The notes under the pieces were generated by a model, which worked only from the letters and a program-made list of their open reading frames with translations, was not told where the DNA came from and did no database searches. 20,052 bases of DNA, from positions 1 to 20,052 of the IMG/VR virus record IMGVR_UViG_3300042897_000129, one strand, 5' to 3'. Source of the DNA: a virus. Positions 2,989-20,052 of the stretch are shown here, piece after piece (within the stretch, counting starts at the first letter, position 1; every line of letters begins with the position of its first letter). The position numbers were made by a program, and so were the translations under genes.

Positions 2989-3771
2989 ATGGCAGAATGG
3001 AAAAAAGTCATTGTCTCCGGTAGTGCCGGAAATTTATCTACAATACAAGTTGATAATTTAACATCGGGACAAGTAGTAATAGGAGGCGGATCTGGTAGTA
3101 TACTATCAACTACCGCAATTAATGGTACGGGTACAATTGTTGCAACAACAGGTGCAACGGGTTTATCACATTCAGGATCATTCTCAGGATCATTTATTGG
3201 TAATGGTAGTGGGTTAACGGGATTAGCAACAACATTAACTGTATCAGGTTCTTCTGGTGCCGGTGGTACTACTATATCATTAGGTTCACAAACGTTGAAT
3301 ATTATAGGTACGACTAATCAAATTGCAACTTCTGCTAGTGCACAGACAGTAACAATTAGTTTACCAACAAATGTTACAATACCTAATAATTTAACAGTAA
3401 CTGGTGATTTATTTGTTAATGGTACTACTACAACTATTAACACAACTGATTTATACATAGAAGATAAATTTATAGTATTAGCTTCTGGCTCTGCTGCATC
3501 AGGTGATGCTGGTATTATAGTTGATAGAGGTTCTGATGTTAACTTAAATATTGCATTTGGTTTCGATAATGATACAGATCGATGGGGATTCCAGAATGGA
3601 GTAACCGATTCGACAAATGCAATGACAATTGGTACTAACGGAAATAGTGCATTTGCTGGTATAGTATTTACAGAAACGGCTCATACCAGTACAAAACCAA
3701 TTACTGGTGAATTTGTTAAAGAAGGTGCAATTTATACTGCAACAGATGGTACAATTTGGATGTATTCATAA
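2989..3771 (+). CDS. Tail fibre-like structural protein (WKKVIVSGS type 1)
   Basis: A 260-residue, Gly/Ser/Thr/Asn-rich protein with the look of a trimeric fibre shaft. It opens MAEWKKVIVSGSAGNLSTIQ, a start shared with the SHAEG fibre downstream. Residues about 59-80 hold SGSFSGSFIGNGSGLTGL, a module common in phage fibres. Residues about 125-165 hold a TNVTIPNNLTVTGDLFVNGT stretch leading into TTTINTTDLYIEDKFIVLA, a beta-repeat I recognise from fibres of T4-like environmental phages. The protein ends in an FVKEGAIYTATDGTIWMYS-type strand. A TAGGAA ribosome site precedes the ATG, and a candidate promoter lies in the gap. No cysteine-rich, enzymatic or intramolecular chaperone region is seen. 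Whether it forms a long tail fibre, whisker or other virion fibre cannot be told from sequence. Confidence 0.7.
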   Translation: MAEWKKVIVSGSAGNLSTIQVDNLTSGQVVIGGGSGSILSTTAINGTGTIVATTGATGLSHSGSFSGSFIGNGSGLTGLATTLTVSGSSGAGGTTISLGSQTLNIIGTTNQIATSASAQTVTISLPTNVTIPNNLTVTGDLFVNGTTTTINTTDLYIEDKFIVLASGSAASGDAGIIVDRGSDVNLNIAFGFDNDTDRWGFQNGVTDSTNAMTIGTNGNSAFAGIVFTETAHTSTKPITGEFVKEGAIYTATDGTIWMYS

Positions 3772-3791
3772 ATTAATTTTGAATAGGTTAT

Positions 3792-3986
3792 ATGTCTATT
3801 ATAAATAAACTAAATAATAATTCCTCTCCGGTTACTCAAACTAATCGGGAGGAATATATTTTAATTCAGCAAGAAATTGAGTACTTGTTAGAATTAATTA
3901 AAAATTCAATGTTCAAAGGTGAACAATTAGAAACGATATATAATATAGTATACAAGTTACAGCAACAATATGTATCACAAAAATAA
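3792..3986 (+). CDS. Small helical protein of unknown function
   Basis: A 64-residue protein with a weak ribosome site (ATAGG, about 7 nt upstream). After a polar N-terminus it is almost entirely predicted helix: REEYILIQQEIEYLLELIKN, a short FKGEQLE turn, then IYNIVYKLQQQYV. This looks like a helix-turn-helix hairpin with a hydrophobic heptad face. It lies 20 nt after a fibre gene and 6 nt before another small helical gene. I recall similar tiny proteins beside structural genes of marine T4-like phages, but no function is known to me. A minor virion or assembly role is only a guess. Confidence 0.6.
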   Translation: MSIINKLNNNSSPVTQTNREEYILIQQEIEYLLELIKNSMFKGEQLETIYNIVYKLQQQYVSQK

Positions 3987-3992
3987 CAAGTT

Positions 3993-4163
3993 ATGTTTAC
4001 AGCACAAGATTTAAGTATATTGCGTCAAGCATTAGATATAATCACAATAACAGGTAAAGATGCAAAATATATTGCATCGCTTCAAATTAAAATTGAACAA
4101 GAATTAGATAACACAGTTCAATCAACACAACCAACTCCAGAAAAATCTCCAAGTAAAAAGTAA
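3993..4163 (+). CDS. Small helical protein of unknown function (56 aa)
   Basis: A 56-residue gene starting MFTAQDLSILRQALDIITIT and continuing GKDAKYIASLQIKIEQELDN, with a Pro/Ser/Lys tail PTPEKSPSKK. It starts 6 nt after the stop of the preceding small gene, and the frame is closed by TAA. Codon use (TTA, CAA, GCA) matches its neighbours. Two amphipathic helices are separated by GKDAKY, a size and layout like the preceding gene product, so the pair may be related or act together. There is no clear ribosome site (only AACAAG), so translation may be coupled to the upstream gene. Function unknown. Confidence 0.6.
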   Translation: MFTAQDLSILRQALDIITITGKDAKYIASLQIKIEQELDNTVQSTQPTPEKSPSKK

Positions 4164-4182
4164 CGGTATTTTATAGTATTTC

Positions 4183-4199
4183 ATATTTATTTATAAATA
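4183..4199 (+). promoter_or_regulatory. Candidate late promoter with perfect T4 late box
   Basis: The element ATATTTAT is followed at once by TTATAAATA, which contains TATAAATA (4192-4199), the exact T4 late -10 consensus on the coding strand. It lies upstream of the SHAEG-repeat fibre, with an unusually long leader of nearly 80 nt between box and start. It is the best individual promoter candidate in the window. Confidence 0.6.
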
Positions 4200-4200
4200 G

Positions 4201-4278
4201 TATTGTTGGCCGCAAGGAAGTAGGCACACGCACGGCATAAGTGTATGTAACTAACCACAATATATAAAGGAATATAAT
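4201..4278 (+). other. GC-rich leader, possible structured 5' UTR
   Basis: Between the late promoter and the fibre start is a leader whose core (4205-4257) is about half G+C by count (27 of 53), well above the surrounding sequence. Short pairings are possible: GTTGG (4205-4209) with CTAAC (4251-4255), GCCG (4209-4212) with CGGC (4233-4236), and ACAC (4226-4229) with GTGT (4241-4244). No single long hairpin is visible. It does not code: the only notable frame stops at a TAA around 4238 and uses CGC and ACG codons foreign to the phage. The leader ends with AAAGGA before the ATG. Confidence 0.4.
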
Positions 4279-5361
4279 ATGCCGTCATGGAAAAAAGTAA
4301 TTGTCTCGGGGTCTGATGCTTCGTTAAATTCATTAAATGTTGAAACATATGTAATTATATCCGGGTCGTTACAAAACGGGTCTAATACAAATGCATCTGG
4401 TTCATATTCCCATGCCGAAGGCGCTGCTACTACATCATCTGGTGATTATTCCCATGCAGAAGGCTTCAGGACTAAAGCTTCTGGTTCATTTTCGCACGCA
4501 GAAGGTAATAGTTCATTTGCAATTGGTTCATATTCCCATGCAGAAGGAACGAGTACTCAAGCAAATGGAACTAATGCACACTCAGAAGGTCAAAATACAA
4601 ATGCAGCAGGTGACGGATCGCATTCAGAAGGATCTAATACACAAGCATCTGGTGATTCTTCCCACACCGAAGGTGTTGGTACAAATGCAATAGGTGGTGC
4701 ATCGCACGCAGAGGGTGAGTCGACATTAACTATCGGCTATGCATCGCACGCTGAAGGATATTACACTGTAGCATCGGGTTCATACCAACATGTTCAAGGT
4801 CAATATAATCAATCTTCATCTGCACAGTCAGCATTCATTATAGGTAATGGTACGAGTGATATTAGCCGGTCCAATCTAGTATTTGCATCTGGATCTACTT
4901 TCCAAGTTACTGGGTCTATTATTGCATCGGCAGGATTCACCGGATCATTACAAGGTACTGCATCATATGCATTAACAGCATCATATGCATTAAATTCTGC
5001 GGGTGGTGGTGGTAGTACCGGTTCATTGCTAACCACCGCTTCATTTTCAGATCCAATTATCACATTTACAAAAGGAGATGGTTCTACATTTGGTGTAGAT
5101 TTAACCGGACTTCAACAAACAAGTCCGATTGCTGCTTATTACACATTAACATCATCTGTATTATCTGGCACTATAATTTCATTGCCAAACGGATTGACAT
5201 ATGTTAGTTCATCAGTATATGAATTTTTAGAAGTGCATGTTAATGGATTACAATTAAGATATAATATAGATTATATACCGATGAGTACATCATCAGTAAA
5301 ATATCTACTATCAATACCAACCGAATCAGAATTAATATATAAAAGTTATAAAAGGCCATAA
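4279..5361 (+). CDS. Fibre protein with YadA-like SHAEG beta-roll repeats (WKKVIVSGS type 2)
   Basis: A 360-residue adhesin/fibre. It starts MPSWKKVIVSGSDASLNSLN, matching the N-terminus of the fibre gene about 1.3 kb upstream. Residues 44-169 are nine 14-residue repeats of the form S-H-A/S/T-E-G-x-x-T-x-x-x-G-x-x. A partial repeat lies in front and a degenerate QHVQGQYN copy behind. The pattern matches the left-handed parallel beta-roll of YadA/Hep_Hag trimeric adhesin heads. Then come FTGSLQGTASYALTASYALN and a TGSLLTTASF...FTKGD module shared with the 1217-aa fibre. The C-terminus ends EFLEVHVNGLQLRYNIDYIP, a small beta domain seen at phage fibre tips. The ribosome site is AAAGGA. The product is probably trimeric; its receptor is unknown. 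Confidence 0.75.
   Translation: MPSWKKVIVSGSDASLNSLNVETYVIISGSLQNGSNTNASGSYSHAEGAATTSSGDYSHAEGFRTKASGSFSHAEGNSSFAIGSYSHAEGTSTQANGTNAHSEGQNTNAAGDGSHSEGSNTQASGDSSHTEGVGTNAIGGASHAEGESTLTIGYASHAEGYYTVASGSYQHVQGQYNQSSSAQSAFIIGNGTSDISRSNLVFASGSTFQVTGSIIASAGFTGSLQGTASYALTASYALNSAGGGGSTGSLLTTASFSDPIITFTKGDGSTFGVDLTGLQQTSPIAAYYTLTSSVLSGTIISLPNGLTYVSSSVYEFLEVHVNGLQLRYNIDYIPMSTSSVKYLLSIPTESELIYKSYKRP
4408..4785 (+). repeat. Nine 42-bp coding repeats (SHAEG, 14 residues)
   Basis: Nine in-frame 42-nt units encode SHAEG or variants (HSEG, HTEG) at exact 14-residue spacing. At the DNA level the TCNCAYGC core and GAAGG are kept while third positions vary (CCC-CAT-GCC, TCG-CAC-GCA). This implies old, selected repeats, not a fresh duplication. 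The period fits one coil of a YadA-type beta-roll. Confidence 0.9.
5017..5106 (+). repeat. Fibre module copy A (TGSLLTTASF...FTKGD)
   Basis: These thirty codons are paralogous to 10830-10919 in the 1217-aa fibre, with 24 of 30 residues identical and the stretch TCATTGCTAACCAC identical in DNA. Both copies sit beside ASYAL repeats, so the two fibres have exchanged or duplicated a module. Confidence 0.85.
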
Positions 5362-5364
5362 ATT

Positions 5365-5664
5365 ATGAATATATCACCAATACCAATGATTAGATTAGAA
5401 GAATTATTACCAATGCCAATGATGTTTTTATATGGATGTCTACGGCAAGGGCAAATTAATGTTGATCGAGAAAATCAATTAATTACAATTTCAGAAATAC
5501 CATATGATGTGAATATGTTAGATTCATACATGATCCGGTTAGATCAATATCAGGCGGAATATACATCTAAATTAGAATCGATTGGTTCTGAAATATCTTC
5601 TAATGAATTACAAATGTTCAATTCAATTCGAGAAATATATTCGGACATAAAAGCATTTATATAA
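5365..5664 (+). CDS. Hypothetical protein, 99 aa
   Basis: It starts 3 nt after the SHAEG fibre stop (weak AAAGG upstream). Its stop is one nucleotide from the start of the 1539-aa gene, so the three are probably co-translated. The N-terminus is Met/Pro/Leu-rich (MNISPIPMIRLEELLPMPMM), followed by FLYGCLRQGQINVDRENQLI and a helical C-terminal half with a charged, coiled-coil-like pattern (LDQYQAEYTSKLESIGSEIS). No signal peptide is convincing. I do not recognise the family. Position between two large fibre genes would suit a fibre-linking or assembly protein, but nothing in the sequence proves it. Confidence 0.55.
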   Translation: MNISPIPMIRLEELLPMPMMFLYGCLRQGQINVDRENQLITISEIPYDVNMLDSYMIRLDQYQAEYTSKLESIGSEISSNELQMFNSIREIYSDIKAFI

Positions 5665-5665
5665 T

Positions 5666-8600
5666 ATGGCAACTATAACAGCAAAAGCAACATCTGGTTC
5701 TATATACAATGTATTAGATCCAAATACATGGATTGGTGGGGTAGTACCCGGCCCGGATGATATAGCAGTTTTTCCATCCCAATTGATACGAGCATATCCT
5801 GCTCCAACTGTTGCTACGAATTACGCTACGTACACACCATGGACTGGCTATCGTACATTAACTGTGAATGCTACAACCGGATTTCCGGCATCTGGTAGTT
5901 TTTATTGTTTTCCTGAGTTAATGCAAGATGTAATGTTACCGGTAAAGATAGATTATCAATCAACATCATCTATAACGTTTATCAGTTGTAGTATAGATCA
6001 TTCATATCGAGAATGGCGTTATCAAAATTCACATTCATATACAGAAAAATTTCCAGGTGATAACCCAGTTGCTATAGGAGATTTACGAAGTAGTAATGCA
6101 TATTTTTATCGTGGTTATGGAAATGCAACTGCTTCTATAAATCCATCCAATTGGCAAAACTGTTATCAATTAACAGGAAGTAGCACATGGTCTGTTGCTC
6201 GTATTGATATTAACATTGCATGTGATTTTACTGTTAAGGATACTGCACGATTGAACATGTTTGCTACAAGTTCGGCATCTGGATATATTAATATATTAGG
6301 TGGGTTTAGTGGCGTAAAACTGTTAGATAGAATGACATTTAATGCTACTGGGTCATGGAATACTGCGACTAGTTCATTTAATGGAATTTTAAGTAATTCA
6401 GCAGCAGCAACATATGTAATAATGTCAGGGTCATCAAATTATTCATCATCATTATTAGCAAGTTCATCAGTAGCCGGCACTAGTACACTAACATTACAAT
6501 CACCGGATAGTTTCGGAGTTGGTGATTTCATTACGGTACAATCAACACCTACATTTAATAGATATGCAAATGTAATGACCGCTAGTGATGCTACAAAATT
6601 AAATGGTATAATACCTAGATATAATACTCCTACATTATTTTATGATCATCGTTTTGGTACTGGTTCATATTATGGACCACAACAATATTCTATATTTGAT
6701 ACCGCATCATATGAAACTGATGATGTAGTTCAGATTGAAAGTATATCTGGTAGTGTTGCTACTATATCTAAACGATATGGAAAACATGGAGATGTACAAC
6801 AAGATCTTGGATTATTAGATTATCAAACATATGTACAAACATATGGAGATACTCAACCAAACTATTTCCCGGGACAAAAACGTGTTGTATTAGTTGATAG
6901 TCAACATATGGATTATCAAGTCGGAGAAACGTTAATTATTAGCGGTGGCGCTTATAATATAATTGAAGCTACTACGTATTTATCTCAATCTCATTATATA
7001 GATTTTACAAATCCAGCTACTAGTTGGACTGATTATATTGATTTAGATGTATATATGTATTCAGGGTCTGGTTATAACATGGCAGCTACTACCAATGTAG
7101 CAAATGATTGGAATAAATTATATAGAAAATATACCTTATTAACTACAGCATCTAGATCAGGTACATCATCATTACATATGTCGTCGGCAAGTTTATCAAA
7201 TCCAGCTTCACCAAATGGATATGAATTTCAAGCATATTTACCTATTAAACGAACATATTTTAAAAATGGTGAAATTGAAATTACAGGTAGTATAATTCGA
7301 GATTTTACTCGTACCGGCTCAACTGACGTAGCAAATTTATTTGGGATATTTGCTGGTGGTACTGTATATGCACGATCATCACATGTTGGTAATATATGGT
7401 TAGATCCAACTATTAACGTTACATATGATTCCGCGCCTGGATTTTTAGTAAATAATACTGACATATATTCTAGGAATCGTGTAAATAGTAATACATTAAC
7501 TGCAGGAGCTGCTAGATATCCATTAATCATGTCACAATCTATTAGTGTGAGTTCACAAGATGGTGATTTGGTAATACCAACATTTACTGGATCCAATCAA
7601 ACCGTATCACTTAAATTAGAAGTTAACCAGGGAATTCAACGACATTATGTACAAAATGTATTGATAGATGAATTTTTAAATCCAGCACAACAACGAGGTA
7701 CTGTCAGTGTAGCATTACAAAAATATGCATCATTACTATCAATAAAAATAAAAAATCGATATCAATTATTAGTTTTAGATACAACTGCTAGTATGTCATA
7801 TGGCGATCGTATTAAACAAGGCGGATTATTAGATACACAAGTTGCTGGTAAAACATGTAAATTTATAGCAAATGAAATTGAAGATCCAATGGGATTTCAA
7901 AACTTAAATTGGGACTATTTTTATAAAAAAGGACAAACCAATTTAAATCCATATGCACATAATTTAATATATAATGTATCCGGTGCTCTTAATACCGCTG
8001 TACAAGGATTTATTCAACAAGCAGGTCCAAAAGCGTTAGACATACAAACAAATGGCGTTGGATATGCACAATGGACTGCATACGGTAAATCTGGAGCTGA
8101 TTTTTTTATAACATATGATTTAGGTACAAATGTAAATTTTGATTCTGTCGGAATTGGACATACTGGTACTAGTATTGAAGCAGCTGTTAATAATATTATA
8201 TCCGGATCTAGAATCGACGTCGCAGACAACCCAGATAATTGGACCACTGTTTGGGCAAAACAACATGATTTACGTAGATCTACCGGTGGTAATGCAATAC
8301 GATTCTACACATTTCCTAGCGGATCTGTTAATAAAAGATTTATACGTGTATATTCAGATGGGGGTACTGCAAATGCTGATTCAAATCGACATGGATTTTT
8401 TGGAGTATATTCATTTGCAACAGCATCATATGGTGTATATGGAGCATCTAATACAACCAATCAAATAAAATTACGAAGTGCAAAAAACTTTGCAGTCGGC
8501 GATACTATAATGTTTTGGAATAGAGATGTTACTGGTACCAGATGTGATAATTTTCAAGCAGGAAATATTGTTTTACCAATATTATATGATACTATAACTA

Positions 8601-10285
8601 ATATACATAATAATGCGGTAACCGATGCAGATGTAGTTGGTGGTAAAACAACATATTATACAATAACCGCAATATCAGGAAATATAATCACATTAGATAG
8701 ACCACCGGCATATGATCATTTATTTGTTGGTACTATTGTAATGAAGTGTAATAGAGGTAAACTTAATTTTGTTGGACGTGATAGAAACCGAATACAAACA
8801 TACTTTCTTAGTAAATATGGTACATTTTCAATAACGCATGTTAACATGTATAATGCAACCTCCGCAAATGGAGGAGGAGTTGGTATAACGAGAGCTAGCT
8901 CAGGTAATACAGCAACGATACGATGTGAATTAGAAGATTCATTTATATATTCACCACGTAGAAATTATAATTCAGTTAATGGTGATATACTTAGAATACG
9001 TAATACAATTGGTAAATTTAATAATCCACCGGGTAGAGTAGAAAATGATGTTTCACAAACAGCTGTTAGTTTTAATATGTTTTGTTTGGAAGGATTAACT
9101 GCATGGTATTATCCTGTAACTAAATTTAATAAAACGGTATTCAATCATTTAGTATGTATGAATCATAATATTAATAGCACAATATATGATAGTTCAATAG
9201 CAACACATGGTTTTAATAGTATGTATGATTCATCATTTCGAGGTGGTAGAATATATGTTAAAAATAATATGTTTCATACTAATTGGAATGATCCGAGAAT
9301 GTTTACTGCTCAACAAAATGCAAGTTTAAGTTCACAAATTAGCAAACAACTTGTTTGGGGTGAAAATTATTTTATGGGTAATATTATCAGCGGATATCCT
9401 GGATCTCAATTTATAATGAATGATATATTTCAGAAATGCAAACTAATTGATTATCGTAATTATTGTAGTAATGTACCATCTGAAAATAGAAAAGGACATC
9501 CAAATTTTGTAAATAATAATATACCATATATATATGATCAATATAGTTACCTGAATAATAAATTTAATGGTACGATAGAAAATATAAGAATACGATTTGA
9601 CCGAGATAAATGTCTTCGAATGCAAGGTAGATTTAATGCTAGTTTATATATATTTGATGAAAATACATATTATAGTGTTTGGTCTGATATTCCAAATTTA
9701 AATAATATATTAGATCTAGGTAATTTTTTATTATGCAATTTTTACGTTAAACAAGACGCCGAAGTTCGTATACAATTAAACGTTTCAGCTAGGACAACTG
9801 TTGCTAAAAAATATGCAATCGGTACTTCTCTTAATAGTACAACCCATGTCGCAACTGGACATGAGTATTACGGTAAATCATTTCCAAAGATATTAGTAAT
9901 TGATAAACAAACAAATACGGTTATTGCAAGTAAATTAGTATCTAGTTTACAATTTCAGGATTATAGTATCAATGAAACCTTCAATTTAAAACAAGGCGAC
10001 TATGCAATATCGTTTGAATTAGGTTATGATGACAATACATTTTCCACCGGTTTAACTTCGACACATATATTTGACTATACACAACCAACATTAGACATAC
10101 TAACTGCAGATGTGAACAATATTGATATTATTAACAATAACTGGGATAACTATAAATTATTAAAAAATATTGACAATAACGTGGTAACGGATATTTATTT
10201 TAAAGATAATATTGGTTCTGAAACCGTAGCACAAACAACATCTGATTTATCATCTACAACCAGATTTAACAAGGTAAAATTATAA
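5666..10285 (+). CDS. Giant multidomain virion adhesin, G8-like N-terminus (1539 aa)
   Basis: Residues 10-36 contain an SGSIYNVLDPNTWIGGVVPG segment and then PDDIAVF. This is the start pattern of G8-type beta domains (W-x-G-G-x-x-P-x-x-x-D) found in carbohydrate-processing and surface proteins. Long Ser/Thr/Tyr-rich beta regions follow. Residues about 780-910 look like an F5/8-type (discoidin) or related carbohydrate-binding fold: WTAYGKSGADFFITYDLGTN, FDSVGIGHTGT, DNPDNWTTVW, then a final RFIRVYSDGG strand. Residues about 1030-1300 have the short Asn-rich strands of a right-handed beta-helix (ITHVNMYNATSANGGGVGIT, RGGRIYVKNNMFHTNW). The C-terminal 200 residues form another beta domain. No catalytic motif is clear, so polysaccharide binding is inferred and depolymerase activity is only possible. 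There is no ribosome site before the ATG; it starts one base after the upstream stop, suggesting coupling. A receptor-binding or baseplate-associated role is likely. Confidence 0.6.
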   Translation: MATITAKATSGSIYNVLDPNTWIGGVVPGPDDIAVFPSQLIRAYPAPTVATNYATYTPWTGYRTLTVNATTGFPASGSFYCFPELMQDVMLPVKIDYQSTSSITFISCSIDHSYREWRYQNSHSYTEKFPGDNPVAIGDLRSSNAYFYRGYGNATASINPSNWQNCYQLTGSSTWSVARIDINIACDFTVKDTARLNMFATSSASGYINILGGFSGVKLLDRMTFNATGSWNTATSSFNGILSNSAAATYVIMSGSSNYSSSLLASSSVAGTSTLTLQSPDSFGVGDFITVQSTPTFNRYANVMTASDATKLNGIIPRYNTPTLFYDHRFGTGSYYGPQQYSIFDTASYETDDVVQIESISGSVATISKRYGKHGDVQQDLGLLDYQTYVQTYGDTQPNYFPGQKRVVLVDSQHMDYQVGETLIISGGAYNIIEATTYLSQSHYIDFTNPATSWTDYIDLDVYMYSGSGYNMAATTNVANDWNKLYRKYTLLTTASRSGTSSLHMSSASLSNPASPNGYEFQAYLPIKRTYFKNGEIEITGSIIRDFTRTGSTDVANLFGIFAGGTVYARSSHVGNIWLDPTINVTYDSAPGFLVNNTDIYSRNRVNSNTLTAGAARYPLIMSQSISVSSQDGDLVIPTFTGSNQTVSLKLEVNQGIQRHYVQNVLIDEFLNPAQQRGTVSVALQKYASLLSIKIKNRYQLLVLDTTASMSYGDRIKQGGLLDTQVAGKTCKFIANEIEDPMGFQNLNWDYFYKKGQTNLNPYAHNLIYNVSGALNTAVQGFIQQAGPKALDIQTNGVGYAQWTAYGKSGADFFITYDLGTNVNFDSVGIGHTGTSIEAAVNNIISGSRIDVADNPDNWTTVWAKQHDLRRSTGGNAIRFYTFPSGSVNKRFIRVYSDGGTANADSNRHGFFGVYSFATASYGVYGASNTTNQIKLRSAKNFAVGDTIMFWNRDVTGTRCDNFQAGNIVLPILYDTITNIHNNAVTDADVVGGKTTYYTITAISGNIITLDRPPAYDHLFVGTIVMKCNRGKLNFVGRDRNRIQTYFLSKYGTFSITHVNMYNATSANGGGVGITRASSGNTATIRCELEDSFIYSPRRNYNSVNGDILRIRNTIGKFNNPPGRVENDVSQTAVSFNMFCLEGLTAWYYPVTKFNKTVFNHLVCMNHNINSTIYDSSIATHGFNSMYDSSFRGGRIYVKNNMFHTNWNDPRMFTAQQNASLSSQISKQLVWGENYFMGNIISGYPGSQFIMNDIFQKCKLIDYRNYCSNVPSENRKGHPNFVNNNIPYIYDQYSYLNNKFNGTIENIRIRFDRDKCLRMQGRFNASLYIFDENTYYSVWSDIPNLNNILDLGNFLLCNFYVKQDAEVRIQLNVSARTTVAKKYAIGTSLNSTTHVATGHEYYGKSFPKILVIDKQTNTVIASKLVSSLQFQDYSINETFNLKQGDYAISFELGYDDNTFSTGLTSTHIFDYTQPTLDILTADVNNIDIINNNWDNYKLLKNIDNNVVTDIYFKDNIGSETVAQTTSDLSSTTRFNKVKL
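10191..10198 (+). promoter_or_regulatory. Possible internal late promoter element
   Basis: ATATTTAT, followed by TTTAAAG, lies inside the end of the 1539-aa gene, 96 nt before the 1217-aa fibre start. That distance equals the one seen before the SHAEG fibre. It codes for Asp-Ile-Tyr-Phe and may be chance in AT-rich DNA. Confidence 0.2.
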
Positions 10286-10286
10286 T

Positions 10287-13200
10287 ATGAAATTTAAAAT
10301 TTTAAATAACGAACCATTACAATTTTATGATTCTAATGCTAATTTAACAGGTACAATCAAGATATCCGGATCCGGGGGTGATTTATATATTACTCCTGAA
10401 TCTGGTTCATCGCGTAATGTAATTATAGGCGATTCTACAACTGTTGGCGATGTTGAAATTGGTGGAACCGCATCACCTGTAAATTTAAGATTGTTAGGTG
10501 GTGGTACTTTAACTAGCAATGGTAATATCCTATATATCGGTAATTCGGCTACGAGTGATCAAGTAATAATATCAAATGCTACATTTACATCGTCCTTACA
10601 AATAACAGGTTCATTGCGGGTATCTGGCAGTGCATATGCACAATATTTCGTAGGCGACGGATCTGGCTTAACCAATATAAACGCATCAGCATCAATTGCT
10701 ATACGCGATGAAGGTACGTTATTAACATCATCAGTTGCATCAATTGATTTTGTTGGAACCGGGGTAAGTGCATCTGTTGTAGGTGGATCTGTTACTGTTA
10801 CCATTAATGGCGGTGGCGGTAGTGCCGATACTGGGTCATTGCTAACCACTGCATCGTTTTCAAATCCTAATTTAACATTTACAAAAGGCGATACTAGTAC
10901 ATTCAATGTCAATTTAACCACATTACAACCAACTACTGCTTCATATTCATTAACAGCATCATATGCATTAAATGCTAGTGCAACAGTTGATACCGGTTCA
11001 TTATTAACTACGAGTTCATTTAATAGCTTTACTAGTTCATATACAACGGGATCATTTACTGGTAGTTTCTTTGGTAATGGTAGTGGGTTACTAGGTGTTA
11101 TAAGTTCGAGCTATGCAGAATCAGCATCATATGCTTTAACGAGTTCATATTCAATTAGTTCTAGTTATGCTACTAGTGCATCATATGCTCTAACTTCATC
11201 ATATGCTCAAAATATAGTTATATCGGGTTCAGTTAATAATGTAGATTACATTGACTTTAATACTGGATCTGCAGAACCAACATGGAAATCAGGAAGAGTT
11301 TATTGGAATAATACAGACGGAGCCTTATCAGTTTACAATGCTGAAGCAGATATATCACTACAAGTAGGTCAAGAGAACTGGGTAAGAGTCCGTAATGCAA
11401 CTGGTGTACTAATTACAAATGGAACTGCAGTAAGACTTATAGGATCTCATGGAGATACACCCAAAGTAGTACTAGCTCAATCTATACAGGTATCAGGGAG
11501 TGTAACTAGAGATAACCAGCTCTTAGGAATAGCTACACACGATATTGAAATAAATTCTTTTGGATATATAACAGCACAGGGTTTAGTAAAAGGGCTAAAT
11601 ACATCTGCTTTTGTGGATGGAGATAGGCTATACGTTTCTTCTTCAGCAGGTAAACTTACAAATATTCCTCCAGTTGCCCCGTATGAACTTATTCCTGCAG
11701 GTATTGTAGTAAAGGCAGGTCCGGGTGGAAGTGGAATTTTATATGCAGATCCTTACCAGCCAATGGACTTTACAGACTTAAGCTCAGTAGAGATAGGAGA
11801 TTACACATATGGAGATATTTTTACATATATTAAAAGTGGATCTATAGGGGTATGGAAACATACAAATCAATTATCTGGATCATATGGTATAACAGGTAGT
11901 TTAACTACTACCGGTTCAAATACATTTATCGGTACTCAAATTATCACAGGTAGTTCATCAACAGATCTAGTAAGAATTACACAAACCGGAACAGGTAATG
12001 CATTTATTGTTGAAGATTCAACTAATCCAGATGCATCACCATTTGTAATAGATAATGCAGGTAATGTTGGGATAGGAACTACTACACCGACACAAAAACT
12101 TACTATTTCTAGTGGTTCTATTCTTTTAGATAATACATATGCATTAAAAATAAAAACTACATCAGGTAATGATGCTGATATAGTTACTCTAAATGCTGGT
12201 AACAGTTTATACTTAGGATCGGCACAACGAGATATATATTTTAGAACAGGTAATAATAACATAATGTATATTACAAGTTCTGCTGTTGGTATTGGTAATT
12301 CTGCTCCTCAATCTGGATTTATATTAGATGTACTTGGTAAATCTGTATTCCGTGGAGATATATATATTAGTGGGTCTTTAATCGAATTTGGTGCATTATC
12401 ATATAAACTAAGTCAAGGTGGTAATAGTTGGATTAATAGTGGTTCTGGAAATTTGGGTATCGGTACGTCCACACCGAATGCTAAATTGGATGTAAATGGT
12501 AATACTCTTATCACCGGTTCATTAACAGTAACCTCAGGTATAACAGGTTCGATATTTGGAACCTCGAGTTGGGCAAATAATGCAGTATCATCATCATATT
12601 CCGCAAATTCAAAACTATTTGATGGAAACAATACTGCGGTATTTGCTACTACAGCAAGTAATATATTTATCGGTAGCCAAACAATAACCGGTTCATTGAT
12701 AATTACCAATGATTTAACAGTAATTGGGTCATCATCTATACAATATATAACATCATCACAATTAAACATTGCAACCAATTTAATTAATGTAAATACAAAT
12801 ACACCGAGTATTCGATTTGGTGGTATTGCGGTTAATGATTCAGGCTCATCCCCAATTAGATCAGGATCATTCCTTTTTGATTCACAAGAAAATCATTGGT
12901 TAGCAGTACACGAAAATGGCGGTGTTGTAGTAACATCATCATTATTTTTAATGGGTCCGGAGACATATAATTCAATTGGTTCCGAAACCCATCCTACTAC
13001 TAATCGAGTATTAAAATCAGTAGATGATGAACACGTTGGTGATTCAAATATTACAGACACCGGAACAACAGTATCTATTAATAGCAATACCGAAATCACC
13101 GGATCTGTATTAATATCTGGTTCATTAACGGTAGGCGGTGTCATATTCGGTAATGGTGGAATGAGTATGTCGGGATCTAATAGTGTTACTGGCTCTTTGA

Positions 13201-13940
13201 TAATTTCTGGATCTGCTACAGCATTAAACGTAGTTGGTAATGCTACGATAACAGGATCATTAAACGTAACACAAAATATTACTGGTTCTGGATTACGGAT
13301 AACTGGCTCAACATCAAGTGATTTAGTTAAAATAACACAAAATGGTGCCGGTAATGCATTTGTTGTAGAAGATTCAACTAGCCCGGATTCAACTGCATTT
13401 ACTATATCAGCAACAGGAAATACCGGTATAGGTGTTTCACCAGACTCCCTAACTAAATTAACAATAACAAATCAATCCAACGTTGGAACTTCATACGGTA
13501 TGTCATCCACAGCAATAGGACCAGATAATGGTACTTCATATGCAATTGGTATATCAGGTATTGGTAATAACGCACAGGATAACATAGGTGTAACAGGTCA
13601 AGCTTCAGCAGCTTTCCTTGGCTCTAATTCTAATATAGGTGTATATGGTACTGCCAATGGAGTTGATACTTCTATACTAAGTATAGGTGGATATTTTTCC
13701 TCAGAACGATCTATAGATAACTACTCATTACAATTAATTGATGGTACTGAAGGAGCTGGTAAAGTATTAGTATCCCAAACATCGGATGGTAAAGCAAATT
13801 GGTCAACCAAATTATCCGGCTCATATGAAATAACAGGTTCACTCGCAATATCCGGATCAGTAATAGGTCAATCAGGAAATACAATATCTAGTGATGCATT
13901 AGTACAAGCATCTCTGTTATATTTATCGAACAATTTCTAA
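10287..13940 (+). CDS. Long modular tail fibre protein (1217 aa)
   Basis: A Gly/Ser/Thr-rich fibre made of recognisable phage modules. In order, by approximate residue: FVGDGSGLTNINAS (121); an IRDEGTLLTSSVASIDFVGT module (137-175); TGSLLTTASF...FTKGD (182-211, paralogue of the SHAEG fibre); SSFTGSFFGNGSGLLGV (255); six SYAxxA hexamers (275-309); a domain around NGTAVRLIGSHGDTPKVVLA to PPVAPYELIPAGIVVKAGPG (364-490); GNAFIVEDSTNPDASPFVID with GNVGIGTTTP (560-600); GNLGIGTSTPNAKLDVNG (721-738); a second GNAFVVEDST/GNTGIG copy (1012-1049); and a GVTGQASAAFLGSNSNIGVY module (1096). No S74-type intramolecular chaperone is visible at the C-terminus. AAGG lies 12 nt before the ATG, which is one base after the previous stop. 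It is probably a trimeric tail or accessory fibre. Roughly residues 331-530 use a different codon style. Confidence 0.75.
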   Translation: MKFKILNNEPLQFYDSNANLTGTIKISGSGGDLYITPESGSSRNVIIGDSTTVGDVEIGGTASPVNLRLLGGGTLTSNGNILYIGNSATSDQVIISNATFTSSLQITGSLRVSGSAYAQYFVGDGSGLTNINASASIAIRDEGTLLTSSVASIDFVGTGVSASVVGGSVTVTINGGGGSADTGSLLTTASFSNPNLTFTKGDTSTFNVNLTTLQPTTASYSLTASYALNASATVDTGSLLTTSSFNSFTSSYTTGSFTGSFFGNGSGLLGVISSSYAESASYALTSSYSISSSYATSASYALTSSYAQNIVISGSVNNVDYIDFNTGSAEPTWKSGRVYWNNTDGALSVYNAEADISLQVGQENWVRVRNATGVLITNGTAVRLIGSHGDTPKVVLAQSIQVSGSVTRDNQLLGIATHDIEINSFGYITAQGLVKGLNTSAFVDGDRLYVSSSAGKLTNIPPVAPYELIPAGIVVKAGPGGSGILYADPYQPMDFTDLSSVEIGDYTYGDIFTYIKSGSIGVWKHTNQLSGSYGITGSLTTTGSNTFIGTQIITGSSSTDLVRITQTGTGNAFIVEDSTNPDASPFVIDNAGNVGIGTTTPTQKLTISSGSILLDNTYALKIKTTSGNDADIVTLNAGNSLYLGSAQRDIYFRTGNNNIMYITSSAVGIGNSAPQSGFILDVLGKSVFRGDIYISGSLIEFGALSYKLSQGGNSWINSGSGNLGIGTSTPNAKLDVNGNTLITGSLTVTSGITGSIFGTSSWANNAVSSSYSANSKLFDGNNTAVFATTASNIFIGSQTITGSLIITNDLTVIGSSSIQYITSSQLNIATNLINVNTNTPSIRFGGIAVNDSGSSPIRSGSFLFDSQENHWLAVHENGGVVVTSSLFLMGPETYNSIGSETHPTTNRVLKSVDDEHVGDSNITDTGTTVSINSNTEITGSVLISGSLTVGGVIFGNGGMSMSGSNSVTGSLIISGSATALNVVGNATITGSLNVTQNITGSGLRITGSTSSDLVKITQNGAGNAFVVEDSTSPDSTAFTISATGNTGIGVSPDSLTKLTITNQSNVGTSYGMSSTAIGPDNGTSYAIGISGIGNNAQDNIGVTGQASAAFLGSNSNIGVYGTANGVDTSILSIGGYFSSERSIDNYSLQLIDGTEGAGKVLVSQTSDGKANWSTKLSGSYEITGSLAISGSVIGQSGNTISSDALVQASLLYLSNNF
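10830..10919 (+). repeat. Fibre module copy B (TGSLLTTASF...FTKGD)
   Basis: Paralogue of the module at 5017-5106, differing at 6 of 30 residues. A shorter third echo, TGSLLTTSSF, follows about 60 codons later in the same gene, so the module has also spread within the fibre. Confidence 0.85.
11109..11213 (+). repeat. SYAxxA hexapeptide repeats
   Basis: Five full and one partial 18-nt units encode S-Y-A/S-x-x-A/S (SYAESA, SYALTS, SYSISS, SYATSA, SYALTS, SYAQN). The DNA word GCATCATATGC recurs here and in the other ASYA-containing genes. A strict six-residue period with an aromatic at position two suggests a repetitive shaft structure. Confidence 0.8.
11964..12077 (+). repeat. Duplicated fibre module, copy 1 (DLVRITQ...GNVGIG)
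   Basis: A 38-codon segment, repeated at 13320-13433 of the same gene with 25 of 38 residues identical and no gaps. It precedes a GIGTTTP strand. Internal duplication has lengthened the fibre shaft. Confidence 0.85.
13320..13433 (+). repeat. Duplicated fibre module, copy 2 (DLVKITQ...GNTGIG)
   Basis: Partner of the copy at 11964-12077, diverged mainly in its second half. Both copies keep GNAF-V-VEDST-PD, a known phage-fibre motif. Confidence 0.85.
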
Positions 13941-15869: not shown

Positions 15870-18323
15870 ATGGCAGAAAGAATAGTATCGCCAGGTGTTT
15901 ATACGAAAGAAATTGATCAATCGTATTTACCTAGAGCAATAGCACAAATCGGTGCAGCAGTTGTTGGTCCAACCGTAAAAGGACCTGCACTTGTACCAAC
16001 CAAAGTATCATCATATAGCGAATTTGCAAATATCTTCGGATCATATTCAGATGACACATATGTACCATATGTAGTTAATGAGTATTTTAGAAATGGTGGA
16101 ACTGCAATGACCGTTACACGTACATTGTATGAAGATGGTTCAAATTACCAAAATGGTGTAATTGCAGTAGTAGCAAAATCGGGTTCTACACAATTAGTAA
16201 CACATGTATTACATCCAACCATACGAGTAGCAAATGATACTACACTTAATCTATTATCTGAGTCAACATTAGCAAATTTCCAATCGGGTAGTTTTTCAAT
16301 TAAATTAAATGGTGCGTATACGGGTTCTGGTACATATAATTTATATCCAACGGCGAATGTAGCAATATCAGCATCAATTAACCTAAACGCAAATAACTAT
16401 GTAACAAAAATATTTGGTACTAATCCGAAATCAACAGATTTTCCGGTATATGTTCAATATGACAATCCACGTGCAATTACATCATTCGCAAATCTAGCAC
16501 ATGTTACTACGAGTTTAGCTATATTTCCAACATATCAATATGATGCAGCATTTAAAGCAGCAGAAACACCATGGATTACTTCTCAGAAGCTAGGAACATT
16601 AACAAAAAACTTATTTAAATTTGCTACATTATCACATGGTACATCTGTTAATCATGAAGTTAAAATTGCAATTCGAGATATTAAAACATCAACAGAGGTA
16701 TCTGATCCAGATAAATATGCTCAATTTACAATCGATGTACGACGAGTAAATACTTCGTATATTCCAAACTCACCATATTTTTCAGCAGATACCGATAGAT
16801 ACCCGGATTTACTTGAATCATTTACTGTAAGTTTAAATCCTGATTCTACTCGATATATTGAACGTGTAATTGGTAATCAATATATGTCAATTAATTCACA
16901 AGGTGATATGCTAGTAAATGGCGATTATCCAAATCAATCACAATTTGTTCGAGTAATTGTTGAGGATAGCGTTGTTAAGAAAAATAATGATAAATCATTA
17001 TTACCATTTGGATTTAAAGCATTATACCAACCGATTCCGGTAATTACTGGATCTGTATTAAATGGTGTTTCTTATATAGCAAGTCAAACTATCGAAGGTG
17101 CATTTAATATTGCTAATTATCATGGATTTAATTATAATGCATCTATATATTTACCAAATAATTTAAATTTTTTAGCACCATTACAATCAGCTGGATTAAC
17201 AACATCAGGCAGTACTGATTTTTATCTAGGAGATTGTACACAAGAAAAAGGTGTTAATTTTCCAATCACTGCTGCATATAGCGGATCGTTAGAAAATGCA
17301 TTAGTATCAGGTTCATTTAATACGAATATTGCTAACACTACTCGTAAATTCATAGTACCATTTCAAGGTGGATATGACGGAGATCGTCCAAACTTACCTA
17401 AGAATTCCGGACTTGATATTTCATCGACTAACACATTTGGTTTCAATTGTAGCGATACTGATACATCTGGAACTAGAACATATCGTAAAGCATTTAGTCT
17501 TCTTAGCAATACAGATTACTATGATATAAACATGTTATTAACACCTGGTATATTATTATCACAACATGGTATAGTAGCAGGAGAAGCACAACAATTAGCA
17601 GAAAATCGCCAAGATACATTCTATGTAATGGATTCGGATGTTATTAACGCAACTATATCAACGGTTAAAACAACGGTCGCAGATGTTGATAGTAATTATA
17701 CTGCTACATATTATCCATGGGTTCGTATTACAAATCCGTCTAAAAATGTTCCGGTATGGGTACCACCATCTGTTGTTATTCCAGGAGTATTAGCATTTAC
17801 TGATGCAAATGCAGCACCGTGGTATGCACCAGCTGGTTTGAATAGAGGTGGTTTAACAAGCGTATCTGATACATATTTAAATTTATCACAAGCATCTCGA
17901 GATAAATTGTATGATGAATGCCGTGTTAACCCAATTGCAAATTTTCCATCAAGTGGTATTGTAGTTTGGGGACAAAAAACATTGCAAGCTCGTGCATCCG
18001 CATTAGACCGTGTTAATGTTAGAAGAATGCTAATTGAGGTTAAAAAATATATTGCATCTGCTACTAGATTTTTAGTATTTGAACAAAATACTGAAGCAAC
18101 GAGACGTAGATTCTTAAGTATTGTTAATCCATATTTAACTGATGTACAAACTAAACAAGGTTTATACTTATTTAAGGTAGTTATGGATGGTACAAATAAT
18201 ACAGCGGATATGATAGATCGTAATATAATGTATGGTCAATTGTTTTTACAACCAACGAGAACGGCTGAATTCATATTGTTAGATTTCAATATCCAACCAA
18301 CGGGGGCATCTTTCCCTGAATAA
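15870..18323 (+). CDS. 18: Tail sheath protein, T4 gp18-like
   Basis: The contractile sheath subunit, 817 residues against about 659 in T4. It begins MAERIVSPGVYTKEIDQSYL, the usual sheath opening (SPGVY-x-x-E), then VVGPTVKGPALVPTKVSSYS and EFANIFGSY, the first conserved block of the Phage_sheath_1 family. The C-terminal block (residues about 640-815) is also typical: APWYAPAGLNRGGL, then VNPIANFPSSGIVVWGQKTL, ALDRVNVRRMLIEVKKYIAS, FEQNTEATRRRFLSIVNPYL and a closing EFILLDFNIQPTGA strand. The middle (about 120-560) is larger and more variable, presumably surface-exposed insertions. An AGGAG ribosome site lies 12 nt upstream. The gene sits between its own promoter candidate and a terminator, with the tube gene next, as in T4 (18-19). 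Confidence 0.93.
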   Translation: MAERIVSPGVYTKEIDQSYLPRAIAQIGAAVVGPTVKGPALVPTKVSSYSEFANIFGSYSDDTYVPYVVNEYFRNGGTAMTVTRTLYEDGSNYQNGVIAVVAKSGSTQLVTHVLHPTIRVANDTTLNLLSESTLANFQSGSFSIKLNGAYTGSGTYNLYPTANVAISASINLNANNYVTKIFGTNPKSTDFPVYVQYDNPRAITSFANLAHVTTSLAIFPTYQYDAAFKAAETPWITSQKLGTLTKNLFKFATLSHGTSVNHEVKIAIRDIKTSTEVSDPDKYAQFTIDVRRVNTSYIPNSPYFSADTDRYPDLLESFTVSLNPDSTRYIERVIGNQYMSINSQGDMLVNGDYPNQSQFVRVIVEDSVVKKNNDKSLLPFGFKALYQPIPVITGSVLNGVSYIASQTIEGAFNIANYHGFNYNASIYLPNNLNFLAPLQSAGLTTSGSTDFYLGDCTQEKGVNFPITAAYSGSLENALVSGSFNTNIANTTRKFIVPFQGGYDGDRPNLPKNSGLDISSTNTFGFNCSDTDTSGTRTYRKAFSLLSNTDYYDINMLLTPGILLSQHGIVAGEAQQLAENRQDTFYVMDSDVINATISTVKTTVADVDSNYTATYYPWVRITNPSKNVPVWVPPSVVIPGVLAFTDANAAPWYAPAGLNRGGLTSVSDTYLNLSQASRDKLYDECRVNPIANFPSSGIVVWGQKTLQARASALDRVNVRRMLIEVKKYIASATRFLVFEQNTEATRRRFLSIVNPYLTDVQTKQGLYLFKVVMDGTNNTADMIDRNIMYGQLFLQPTRTAEFILLDFNIQPTGASFPE

Positions 18324-18404: not shown

Positions 18405-19022
18405 ATGTCATTTAACTATAATGCTACAAAAACCGATTATACAATTGCTGATGATTCTGAATTAAAAGCATTCGGTGATATTGGTACTAATACTGCTGGT
18501 GCGGCCGCAACTAGTATACCTAGTCAAACACAAGTAAAATCTCAAACTGAACTATTTGGCGATGCATTCAGTTGGGAACCAAAGTACCAACATAGATTTA
18601 TAATGTCAATGACCGATGGAATACCATCTCATTTAATAAAAGCATCAGCAAAACCAACACTAGAAAACGGCGAGATTACGTTAGATCATATCAATGTTAA
18701 GCGTAAAATAAAAGGTAAATCTATGTGGAATAGTATTGCTATAACAATTTATGACGCAATAGTTCCATCAGCTGCACAGGCGGTAATGCAATGGGTACGT
18801 TTACATCATGAATCTGCTACTGGTAGAGATGGGTATTCTAGTCAATATAAAAAAGATATTACATTGCAACAATTATCTGGTCTAGGTGAAGTAATTGAAG
18901 AATGGACATTGTATGGTTGTTATTTACAATCAGTTAATTTTGGTAGTTTAGATTGGTCTGCAGAAGATGTAGTAACAATCGACGCAACATTAAATTATGA
19001 TTATGCATTCTTAAGTTTCTAA
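18405..19022 (+). CDS. 19: Tail tube protein, T4 gp19-like
   Basis: A 205-residue protein; T4 gp19 is about 163. The first 45 or so residues are a polar Ala/Thr/Ser-rich extension. The core follows the tube pattern: FGDAFSWEPKYQHRFIMSMT, then IPSHLIKASAKPTLENGEIT with IKGKSMWNSIAITIYDAI, where strands form the inner barrel of the hexameric ring. A VMQWVRLHHES helix and an EEWTLYGCYLQSVNFGSLDW strand pair follow. The end, DVVTIDATLNYDYAFLSF, parallels the T4 gp19 F-E-V-T-L-A-L-D-Y-W end. The product stacks as the inner tube for DNA passage inside the gp18-like sheath. It has its own promoter candidate, an AAGGA ribosome site and a downstream terminator, as expected for a highly expressed gene. 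Confidence 0.9.
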   Translation: MSFNYNATKTDYTIADDSELKAFGDIGTNTAGAAATSIPSQTQVKSQTELFGDAFSWEPKYQHRFIMSMTDGIPSHLIKASAKPTLENGEITLDHINVKRKIKGKSMWNSIAITIYDAIVPSAAQAVMQWVRLHHESATGRDGYSSQYKKDITLQQLSGLGEVIEEWTLYGCYLQSVNFGSLDWSAEDVVTIDATLNYDYAFLSF

Positions 19023-19112: not shown

Positions 19113-19886
19113 ATGACAAAAATGACAGATCGCCTAAGTGATTCAAACATCATCGAATTGGCAAAACGTAGTTATGAAAACAAAGAAAAAAGTAAATTAC
19201 CATCATCGATTGTAAATTTAGCAAGTAAAGGATTGATATATCCAAAATCACACCCATTTAGAAAAGGATATACTGAAATGCGTTATATGACTGCATATGA
19301 TGAAGATATATTAACTAATGTATCGTATGCTAGAGAAAACGTTATATTGGATAAGTTATTAGAAGCATTAATATTAGATCCTATAGATATTAGTAGTATA
19401 GCTATATGTGATAAAGAAATATTAGTAATAAATGCTAGAAATATGGGATATGGTCCTGAATATCCAATTTCATTAATAGATCCTAATACAAATACAATTG
19501 TAGAAACAATTATGAATCTAGATGATATTAAAACATCGGATTTTAAATTAATTTCAGACGATAATGGCGAATTTTCATATGAATTAGAGAACTCAAAAGA
19601 AATTAAATATCGTTTTTTATTGCAACGAGATGTAGATAAGATAAAAGAATCGAACGCAATATCTGGATTTTTAGAAAGAACTATAACAGAAGTAAATGGT
19701 AATAGAGATATTGAATCAATTCGTACTTTTATAAAAACAGAATTGACATTGCGAGAATCGAAACGATTACGATCATTTATAAATGACAATACACCAGAAG
19801 TTATAAAACAAATAGAAATGCAAAGCGAGGATGGTAGTACTTTCACTGCTAGCTTTCGATTTAACGCCGACCTTTTTTGGTTATAA
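19113..19886 (+). CDS. 26: Baseplate/tail assembly protein, T4 gp26-like (T4_baseplate family)
   Basis: A 257-residue protein; T4 gp26 is about 208. Residues about 28-110 have the family layout: LPSSIVNLASKGLIYPKSHP, then MRYMTAYDEDILTNVSYARE with VILDKLLEALI (M-T-x-x-x-E-D-I-L-T and V-L-D-K-L-x-E). ICDKEILVINARNMGYGPEY follows, the block that in relatives precedes a strand-rich domain. The end, SFRFNADLFW, resembles the hydrophobic FFWP-type end I recall for this family. In T4, gp26 acts in baseplate hub assembly. Here the gene directly follows the tube gene, the place of lambda-type tail assembly chaperones. AAGGA lies 16 nt upstream. Just before the stop is a run of six T, and a second frame continues past it. 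Confidence 0.65.
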   Translation: MTKMTDRLSDSNIIELAKRSYENKEKSKLPSSIVNLASKGLIYPKSHPFRKGYTEMRYMTAYDEDILTNVSYARENVILDKLLEALILDPIDISSIAICDKEILVINARNMGYGPEYPISLIDPNTNTIVETIMNLDDIKTSDFKLISDDNGEFSYELENSKEIKYRFLLQRDVDKIKESNAISGFLERTITEVNGNRDIESIRTFIKTELTLRESKRLRSFINDNTPEVIKQIEMQSEDGSTFTASFRFNADLFWL

Positions 19887-20052
19887 ACCAGAAGATTCTA
19901 TTTCATTGCATGATCAGTTATTCGAATTCATATGGATGAGTGATGGTAGATTTGATTGGGATACTGTATACAATATGCCAATTTTTATTAGAAATTTTTG
20001 GATTCGTAAATTAAATCATAAATTAGCAGAACGAGCTAATGTCGGTACTTCA
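19831..20052 (+). CDS. Overlapping downstream frame, putative frameshift-expressed extension (3' partial)
   Basis: This frame is open from 19816 (after a TAG at 19813) to the window end and is offset +1 from the gp26-like gene. It encodes FDLTPTFFGYKPEDSISLHD, then QLFEFIWMSDGRFDWDTVYN and MPIFIRNFWIRKLNHKLAER. The W-D-x-V-Y-N-M-P-x-x-x-R-x-F-x-x-x-K-L pattern is one I recall from small proteins coded beside tail assembly genes in T4-like phages. The only upstream ATG (19831) has GAGG directly abutting it, too close to act as a ribosome site. The next ATG (19936) has none. Expression as a frameshift fusion with the gp26-like protein is therefore inferred; a separate overlapping gene is the alternative. 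Confidence 0.55.
   Translation, partial: MVVLSLLAFDLTPTFFGYKPEDSISLHDQLFEFIWMSDGRFDWDTVYNMPIFIRNFWIRKLNHKLAERANVGTS
19873..19894 (+). promoter_or_regulatory. Candidate +1/-2 frameshift site with hairpin
   Basis: Six T (19873-19878) lie three codons before the gp26-like stop, read CTT-TTT-TGG. A tRNA-Phe on TTT (19875-19877) re-pairs perfectly after moving +1 or -2, entering the downstream frame. TTTTTGGTT (19874-19882) can pair with AACCAGAAG (19886-19894) around ATA, nine pairs including two G-T, enclosing the stop codon. This is a sequence-based proposal. Confidence 0.4.

Follow-up and report, generated by a model that had tools for sequence, protein, structure and literature searches.

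Probable +1 programmed frameshifting in a T4 gp26-family tail gene conserved among mostly uncultivated phages

Introduction

At the end of a viral contig, directly after the tail sheath and tail tube genes, a frame encoding a T4 gp26-like protein is closed by a stop codon, while a second frame, offset by +1, crosses this stop and remains open up to the last base. How is the second frame translated, and what would it contribute to the protein encoded upstream? A first-pass annotation of this DNA had proposed a programmed frameshift, +1 or -2, joining the two frames at the position held by G/GT in lambda.

Chaperones of the lambda G/GT type are produced by programmed frameshifting (Levin 1993; Xu, Hendrix and Duda 2004; review PMC5009743). 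This frameshift is among the most conserved features of long-tailed phages, and T4 was still listed as its exception in 2016: the review (PMC5009743) describes it as widespread except in T4. T4-like chaperone genes were identified by Vladimirov, Gautam and Davidson (2022), as cited in PMC10885494 and PMC12846349. From this work, the PRFect paper (PMC10885494) retains that some T4-like phages encode the longer fusion in a gene distinct from the short one, and PMC12846349 mentions poly-T -1 signals in T4-like TAC-N genes. As far as these citing papers convey it, gp26/gp51-type tail assembly chaperones (TACs) of T4-like phages, some of them with poly-T -1 signals, appear to be already published. 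The link to T4 and the -1 signals are therefore not claimed here as new.

Results

The overlapping frames in the window

The window, i.e. the whole stretch of DNA that was analysed, is the entire virus record IMGVR_UViG_3300042897_000129 (20,052 bases). The features that matter here are the following.

15870..18323, + strand: tail sheath protein, 817 aa (phrog_23 tail sheath, 2.6e-68; Pfam Phage_sheath_1/1C)
18405..19022, + strand: tail tube protein, 205 aa (phrog_4542 tail tube, 6.1e-28; PF06841 gp19, 7.6e-6, under the gathering score)
19113..19886, + strand: putative short tail assembly chaperone (TAC-N), T4 gp26-like, 257 aa (PF12322, phrog_150 and model matches)
19816..20052, + strand: full open stretch of the +1 frame, ended by the contig end (reading of the frames)
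19872..19880, + strand: slippery site CTT TTT TGG, kept as YTT YTT T in relatives, the preceding base being hardly ever T
19879..20052, + strand: predicted C-terminal extension (T / TAC-NC domain) after a +1 slip, incomplete, GYKPEDSISLHDQLFEFIWMSDGRFDWDTVYNMPIFIRNFWIRKLNHKLAERANVGTS... (codon-position signature; profile match to the Mel-type T domain)

The gp26-like ORF (frame 0, 257 aa) begins at the ATG at 19113, preceded by AAGGA, and terminates at the TAA at 19884-19886. Its 3' end reads GAC CTT TTT TGG TTA TAA, so that the stop lies two codons past the site (CTT at 19872-19874, TTT at 19875-19877, TGG at 19878-19880, with a T6 run at 19873-19878). The positions first given for this stop (19886) and for the beginning of the second frame (19816) were correct on re-reading. 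The +1 frame is cut at 20052 because the virus record itself ends there; in the nearest relatives (L002 and L003), the extension stops about 30-36 nt past the equivalent position. Elsewhere in the window, at 4279-5361 and 2989-13940, we found large proteins of repetitive sequence, with repeats of the GSYSHAEG type and GS-rich stretches, mostly without clear family, which are probably fibres or decoration proteins.

Conservation of the second frame

In the window alone, the 56 open codons past the stop in the given frame have a probability of about 1.4% by chance, which is suggestive, not decisive, and relatives are needed. Three sets of loci were considered. For the window-type set (52 unique contigs), the short form had 343 confirmed relatives in IMG/VR, and we read the best 80. 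The second set comprises 80 loci found with the short form of the Microcystis phage Mel-JY01 (67 unique contigs; Mel-type). The third set was obtained by searching with the downstream domain only, blind to frame (44 unique loci).

All window-type loci with enough sequence keep the stop two codons past the site and an ORF in the +1 frame that crosses this stop. The Mel-type loci reaching far enough have the identical layout with TTT TTT TGG CCT, and in the frame-blind search the downstream domain was in a +1 relation to a long upstream ORF in 44 of 44 unique loci. Cultured phages agree: a +1-frame domain follows TTT CTT TGG in immuto (Flavobacterium) and TTT TTT TGG in Mel-JY01. With these relatives, the overlapping-frame layout is decisive, far beyond chance.

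Moreover, the +1 frame evolves as a protein under purifying selection. Among relatives, its codon positions 1, 2 and 3 take 30, 17 and 54% of the differences, respectively, and the extension stretch contains no stop per sequence in this frame vs. 2.0 and 3.8 in the two others. The T domains of the window type and of the Mel type constitute one family (99.8% in a pairwise profile comparison, uncalibrated against a database). Searching bacterial and archaeal genomes for the T domain returned zero relatives. The comparison of homologues called for by the first-pass annotation showed the slippery site, the overlap and the offset to be all kept; together with relatives devoid of any start for the second frame (see below), this supports the programmed frameshift that it had proposed.

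Tail-gene context and short-form family

The gene order is sheath, tube, short form, extension and then tape measure, the last being known from relatives, as the window is cut before it. The next large gene of immuto carries a tape measure annotation, and the next gene of window-type loci matches both the immuto tape measure and the Mel-type tape measures (hhalign, 99.6 and 99.7%, respectively). In addition, the tape measures of Mel-JY01 and SP-15 match PHROG tape measure families. The position of lambda G/GT is thus borne out, with the tube directly upstream and, as anticipated, a tape measure gene next in relatives.

The short form matches PF12322 (T4_baseplate) with 26.6 bits, for a gathering score of 24.5, and phrog_150 (1.6e-6). 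The short form and a T4-like gp51 were modelled separately. The AlphaFold model of the short form (pLDDT 88) matches gp26-type predicted proteins in BFVD; fold search of the PDB gave no solved structure, chaperones included, that resembles it at E < 0.001, nor did sequence search give any, fold likeness to a solved tail chaperone being not strictly defining, as tail chaperones are highly diverged. The suggested link between the T4_baseplate family and a chaperone role is supported, a link which, as far as the citing papers convey it, has prior art in T4-like phages.

Constraints on the slippery site

Several variants of the site exist across relatives (CCTTTTTTGG, CTTTTTTTGG, GTTTTTTGG, CTTCTTTGG, TTTTTTTAC). 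The 7-T variants (GACTTTTTTTGG) hold the identical frame relation via substitution, not insertion, and sites with an interrupted run occur (CTTCTTTGG, TTTCTTTGG). The slippery codons are kept beyond the need of amino-acid coding. When Leu is encoded by the first codon of the site, it is CTT in every window-type case, vs. 7% of Leu codons elsewhere in these genes. Presuming that synonymous sites are otherwise free and that clusters are independent, synonymous usage predicts a T before the run in 13.0 of 18 window-type clusters and 10.6 of 20 Mel-type clusters at 70% identity, and it was observed in none of them (P = 7e-12 and 2.7e-8, respectively); at 90% identity, it was observed in 1 of 37 window-type clusters (26.9 expected) and 0 of 55 Mel-type clusters (27.7 expected).

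Trp is present at the site in all 50 window-type proteins and only three times elsewhere in them. In two Mel-type loci (L241 and L243), TAC replaces TGG after the run, and the Trp codon is therefore not essential to the site. In the Mel-type loci L171-L250, a Gly directly before the run is nearly always encoded by GGG, which makes up 10% of Gly codons elsewhere, and never by GGA or GGT, a preference that T avoidance explains only in part. No conserved downstream stimulatory RNA structure was found.

Alternatives to a +1 ribosomal slip

The downstream ORF might simply be an overlapping gene that has a start codon and a ribosome site of its own. In the +1 frame of the window there is an ATG at 19831, many window-type loci do have an upstream ATG or GTG in this frame (many relatives an ATG at -71 or a GTG at -59 relative to the stop), and separate starts occur in related layouts, i.e. 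the cyanophage gp51 ATG just past the gp26 stop and the overlapping start in LR756511. However, in part of the loci, the +1 frame is free of ATG, GTG and TTG between the preceding stop and the junction. This applies to 2 of 52 window-type loci (L003 and L004, ranked second and third among the relatives), to 26 of 67 in the Mel-type set and to 13 of 44 in the frame-blind set; in 14 Mel-type loci, the preceding stop is only 8 nt from the junction. In the start-free loci, the first start codon after the slip is mostly located 16 or 32 codons inside the conserved domain. With no start before the junction, the domain is reachable only through the upstream frame, barring an unusual start codon, and this explanation, which would not account for the constraint on the slippery codons either, is very unlikely. 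The first-pass annotation had relied on neither ATG of the window having a usable ribosome site; this point is weak for the window itself, but start-free relatives now carry the argument, and the opposite case of a separate gene with a good start of its own is contradicted by many of them.

We also considered a sequencing or assembly error in the T run, the two frames then being one gene, or a pseudogene with one dead frame. Such errors are common in homopolymers, and here the site lies near the end of a metagenome contig, but the offset is common to more than 100 unique contigs with 6-T, 7-T and interrupted runs as well as to the cultured phages immuto and Mel-JY01, so that a systematic fault common to all projects would be required. 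Given these cultured phages, the interrupted runs and the selection acting on the +1 frame, error and pseudogene were rejected as having a negligible probability; a run of really five or seven T is itself excluded by the 7-T substitution variants and the interrupted runs. Transcriptional slippage on the T run would generate mixed mRNAs, both products then resulting from standard decoding, and most members do have a run of 6-7 T. Such slippage usually needs longer runs than this, and the layout persists at the interrupted sites CTTCTTTGG, TTTCTTTGG and TTCTTTCGT, which have no more than three T in a row. The site can do without a homopolymer, which speaks against both sequence error and transcriptional slippage, the latter being highly improbable.

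The fusion might finally be made by a -2 (or longer backward) slip, with one extra Phe at the junction. The -2 offset equals +1 modulo 3, T6 and T7 sites permit full -2 re-pairing of tRNA-Phe, and phage Mu tail genes have been described as using a -2 frameshift. Left undecided by the first-pass annotation, the direction now appears to be +1 rather than -2, because of divergent sites and of a base before the run that is almost never T. In the Streptococcus phage GXN1 (TTCTTTCGT; TTC TTT CGT) and in LR756508 (TTTCTATTC / AACTTTCTA; TTT CTA), re-pairing would be possible at +1 (UUU to UUC) but fails at -2. A +1 slip also fits the immuto (TTTCTTTGG) and SP-15 (TTTTTTCAC) sites. The variants with CUU resemble the slip of prfB, and CTTCTTTGG and TTTCTTTGG would suit such a CUU U slip; since the slipping codon is YTT, a slip of tRNA-Leu on CUU, known from prfB, would be required as well. 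The absence of T before the run in all clusters at 70% identity further disfavours tandem backward slips. Two cases call for caution: GXN1 carries CCC C farther on, a possible true slip site, and in LIS04 (TTT TTT AGT) the slip would be needed one codon earlier. With these caveats, the P-site tRNA would be able to re-pair at +1 in all members, and in some of them not at -2. The argument for +1 over -2 is good but not closed, and a backward slip is unlikely.

Relationship with T4 gp26 and gp51

T4 gp26 and gp51 both match PF12322 over full length. Only gp51 covers phrog_150 up to its end and also matches phrog_634, the short cyanophage gp51 family; gp51 thus corresponds to a gp26-like domain plus a C-terminal domain. 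In the T4-like gp51 model, the elements are similarly ordered, and three helices follow at the C-terminus. In pairwise profile comparisons, uncalibrated against a database, the Mel-type T domain matches the Aeh1/HTVC008M type at 91.8%, and the latter matches the T4 gp51 C-terminus at 96.8%. Compared directly, the window-type T domain and the T4 gp51 C-terminus give no significant match (0.3%), and the link passes through these intermediates.

In cyanophages, an invariant NNT TTT TTC is followed by the gp51 domain in the -1 frame, and U UUU UUY with a -1-frame domain was also found in HTVC008M, pf16, OLIVR5, Aeh1, K575, Vibrio 1.081 and S13. The cyanophage gp26 (L091-L170 and P-SSM2, L088) ends with this canonical -1 heptamer, NNT being AGT, AAT, GCT or TCT, and the gp51 domain also has a conserved ATG two bases past the gp26 stop; frameshift and own-start routes may both operate there. 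In Aeromonas phage Aeh1 (L256, just after 3717) and Cronobacter phage S13 (L272, just after 3723), an unannotated gp51-type domain follows GAT TTT TTC in the -1 frame. Being unannotated and without ATG before their body, these domains are likely missed frameshift extensions.

Other layouts were observed. In T4 (L090) and phiAS4 (L269), gp26 and gp51 are divergently transcribed neighbours, and in RB43 (L268), the gp51-like (3001-3744) and gp26-like (3737-4294) genes overlap on one strand. In the 595 kb phage LR756511 (L089), a gp26-like protein is lengthened by a long N-terminal addition, and a separate gp51-like domain follows from an overlapping start, TAATGG, which constitutes a fourth arrangement.

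Discussion

Programmed +1 frameshifting very probably yields two tail assembly chaperones from this locus, a short one (G/TAC-N) and a long one (GT/TAC-NC). The layout, its conservation, the selection on the +1 frame, the missing starts, the downstream tape measure of relatives and the gp26/gp51 family are computed results; we infer the slippage itself, its +1 direction, its efficiency and the chaperone function. Most ribosomes would stay in frame 0 and make the 257-aa short form, with the role of lambda gpG. A minority would slip by +1 with the P-site tRNA-Phe (tRNA-Leu in CUU variants) on the second YTT of YTT YTT T and re-pair with the overlapping UUU. In the window, the P-site TTT at 19875-19877 would be exchanged for 19876-19878, the next codon being GGT (19879-19881). 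Slipped ribosomes would then decode GGN and add a helical T domain of about 60-75 aa, giving the equivalent of lambda gpGT. On the lambda model, the tape measure protein would be coated by many copies of the short form and few of the long one, and the T domain would recruit the tail tube protein.

More broadly, a single chaperone family has probably reached at least three solutions for making two products: +1 slippage at YTT YTT T (the window, Mel-JY01, immuto and probably SP-15), -1 slippage at U UUU UUY (cyanophages, Aeh1, pf16 and similar phages) and gene duplication in which one copy has the fusion built in (T4 gp26 and gp51). Selection on the base before the run would act in opposite ways in the +1 and -1 lineages.

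We found no report of the +1 version in the window lineage in the open-access literature, and its conservation seems to be the new part relative to Vladimirov et al. (2022) as the citing papers present it. If true, it would be the first +1 version whose conservation has been shown over a large lineage, most of it uncultivated. As a lambda-style layout is here combined with a T4 gp26-family protein, the window lineage may show the ancestral gp26/gp51 arrangement, and it may show how the direction of frameshifting switches inside one family. The compact conserved +1 site would also be useful for ribosome studies. Finally, it provides an annotation rule for a gene part missed by standard pipelines: annotation of the T domain is missing from Aeh1 and S13, and the immuto record lists just a 36-aa ORF farther downstream.

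Compared with known systems, the slip chemistry of the CTT variants would be like that of prfB (CUU U to UUU), with a difference in the A site, a stop codon in prfB and UGG (or UAC) here. In the lambda G/GT type, the frameshift is mostly -1, whereas the offset is +1 in the window family, whose short form is, unlike that type, a T4_baseplate-family protein without a solved fold match. Among tail chaperone pairs, the haloarchaeal myovirus HSTV-2, for which +1 frameshifting is considered very likely (PMC5009743), has the same +1 offset. T4 gp26 and gp51 belong to the same PF12322 family, and the C-terminal domain of gp51 may be related to the window extension through the chain of profiles, but T4 has the two forms as separate divergently transcribed genes, in contrast to the single overlapping pair adjoining tube and tape measure in the window family. 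The -1 poly-T signals of T4-like chaperone genes share gene family and position with the window family. In these -1 lineages, the base before the run is always a T (22 of 22 cyanophage clusters) and the -1 frame encodes the extension, whereas the window family avoids this T and has its extension in the +1 frame.
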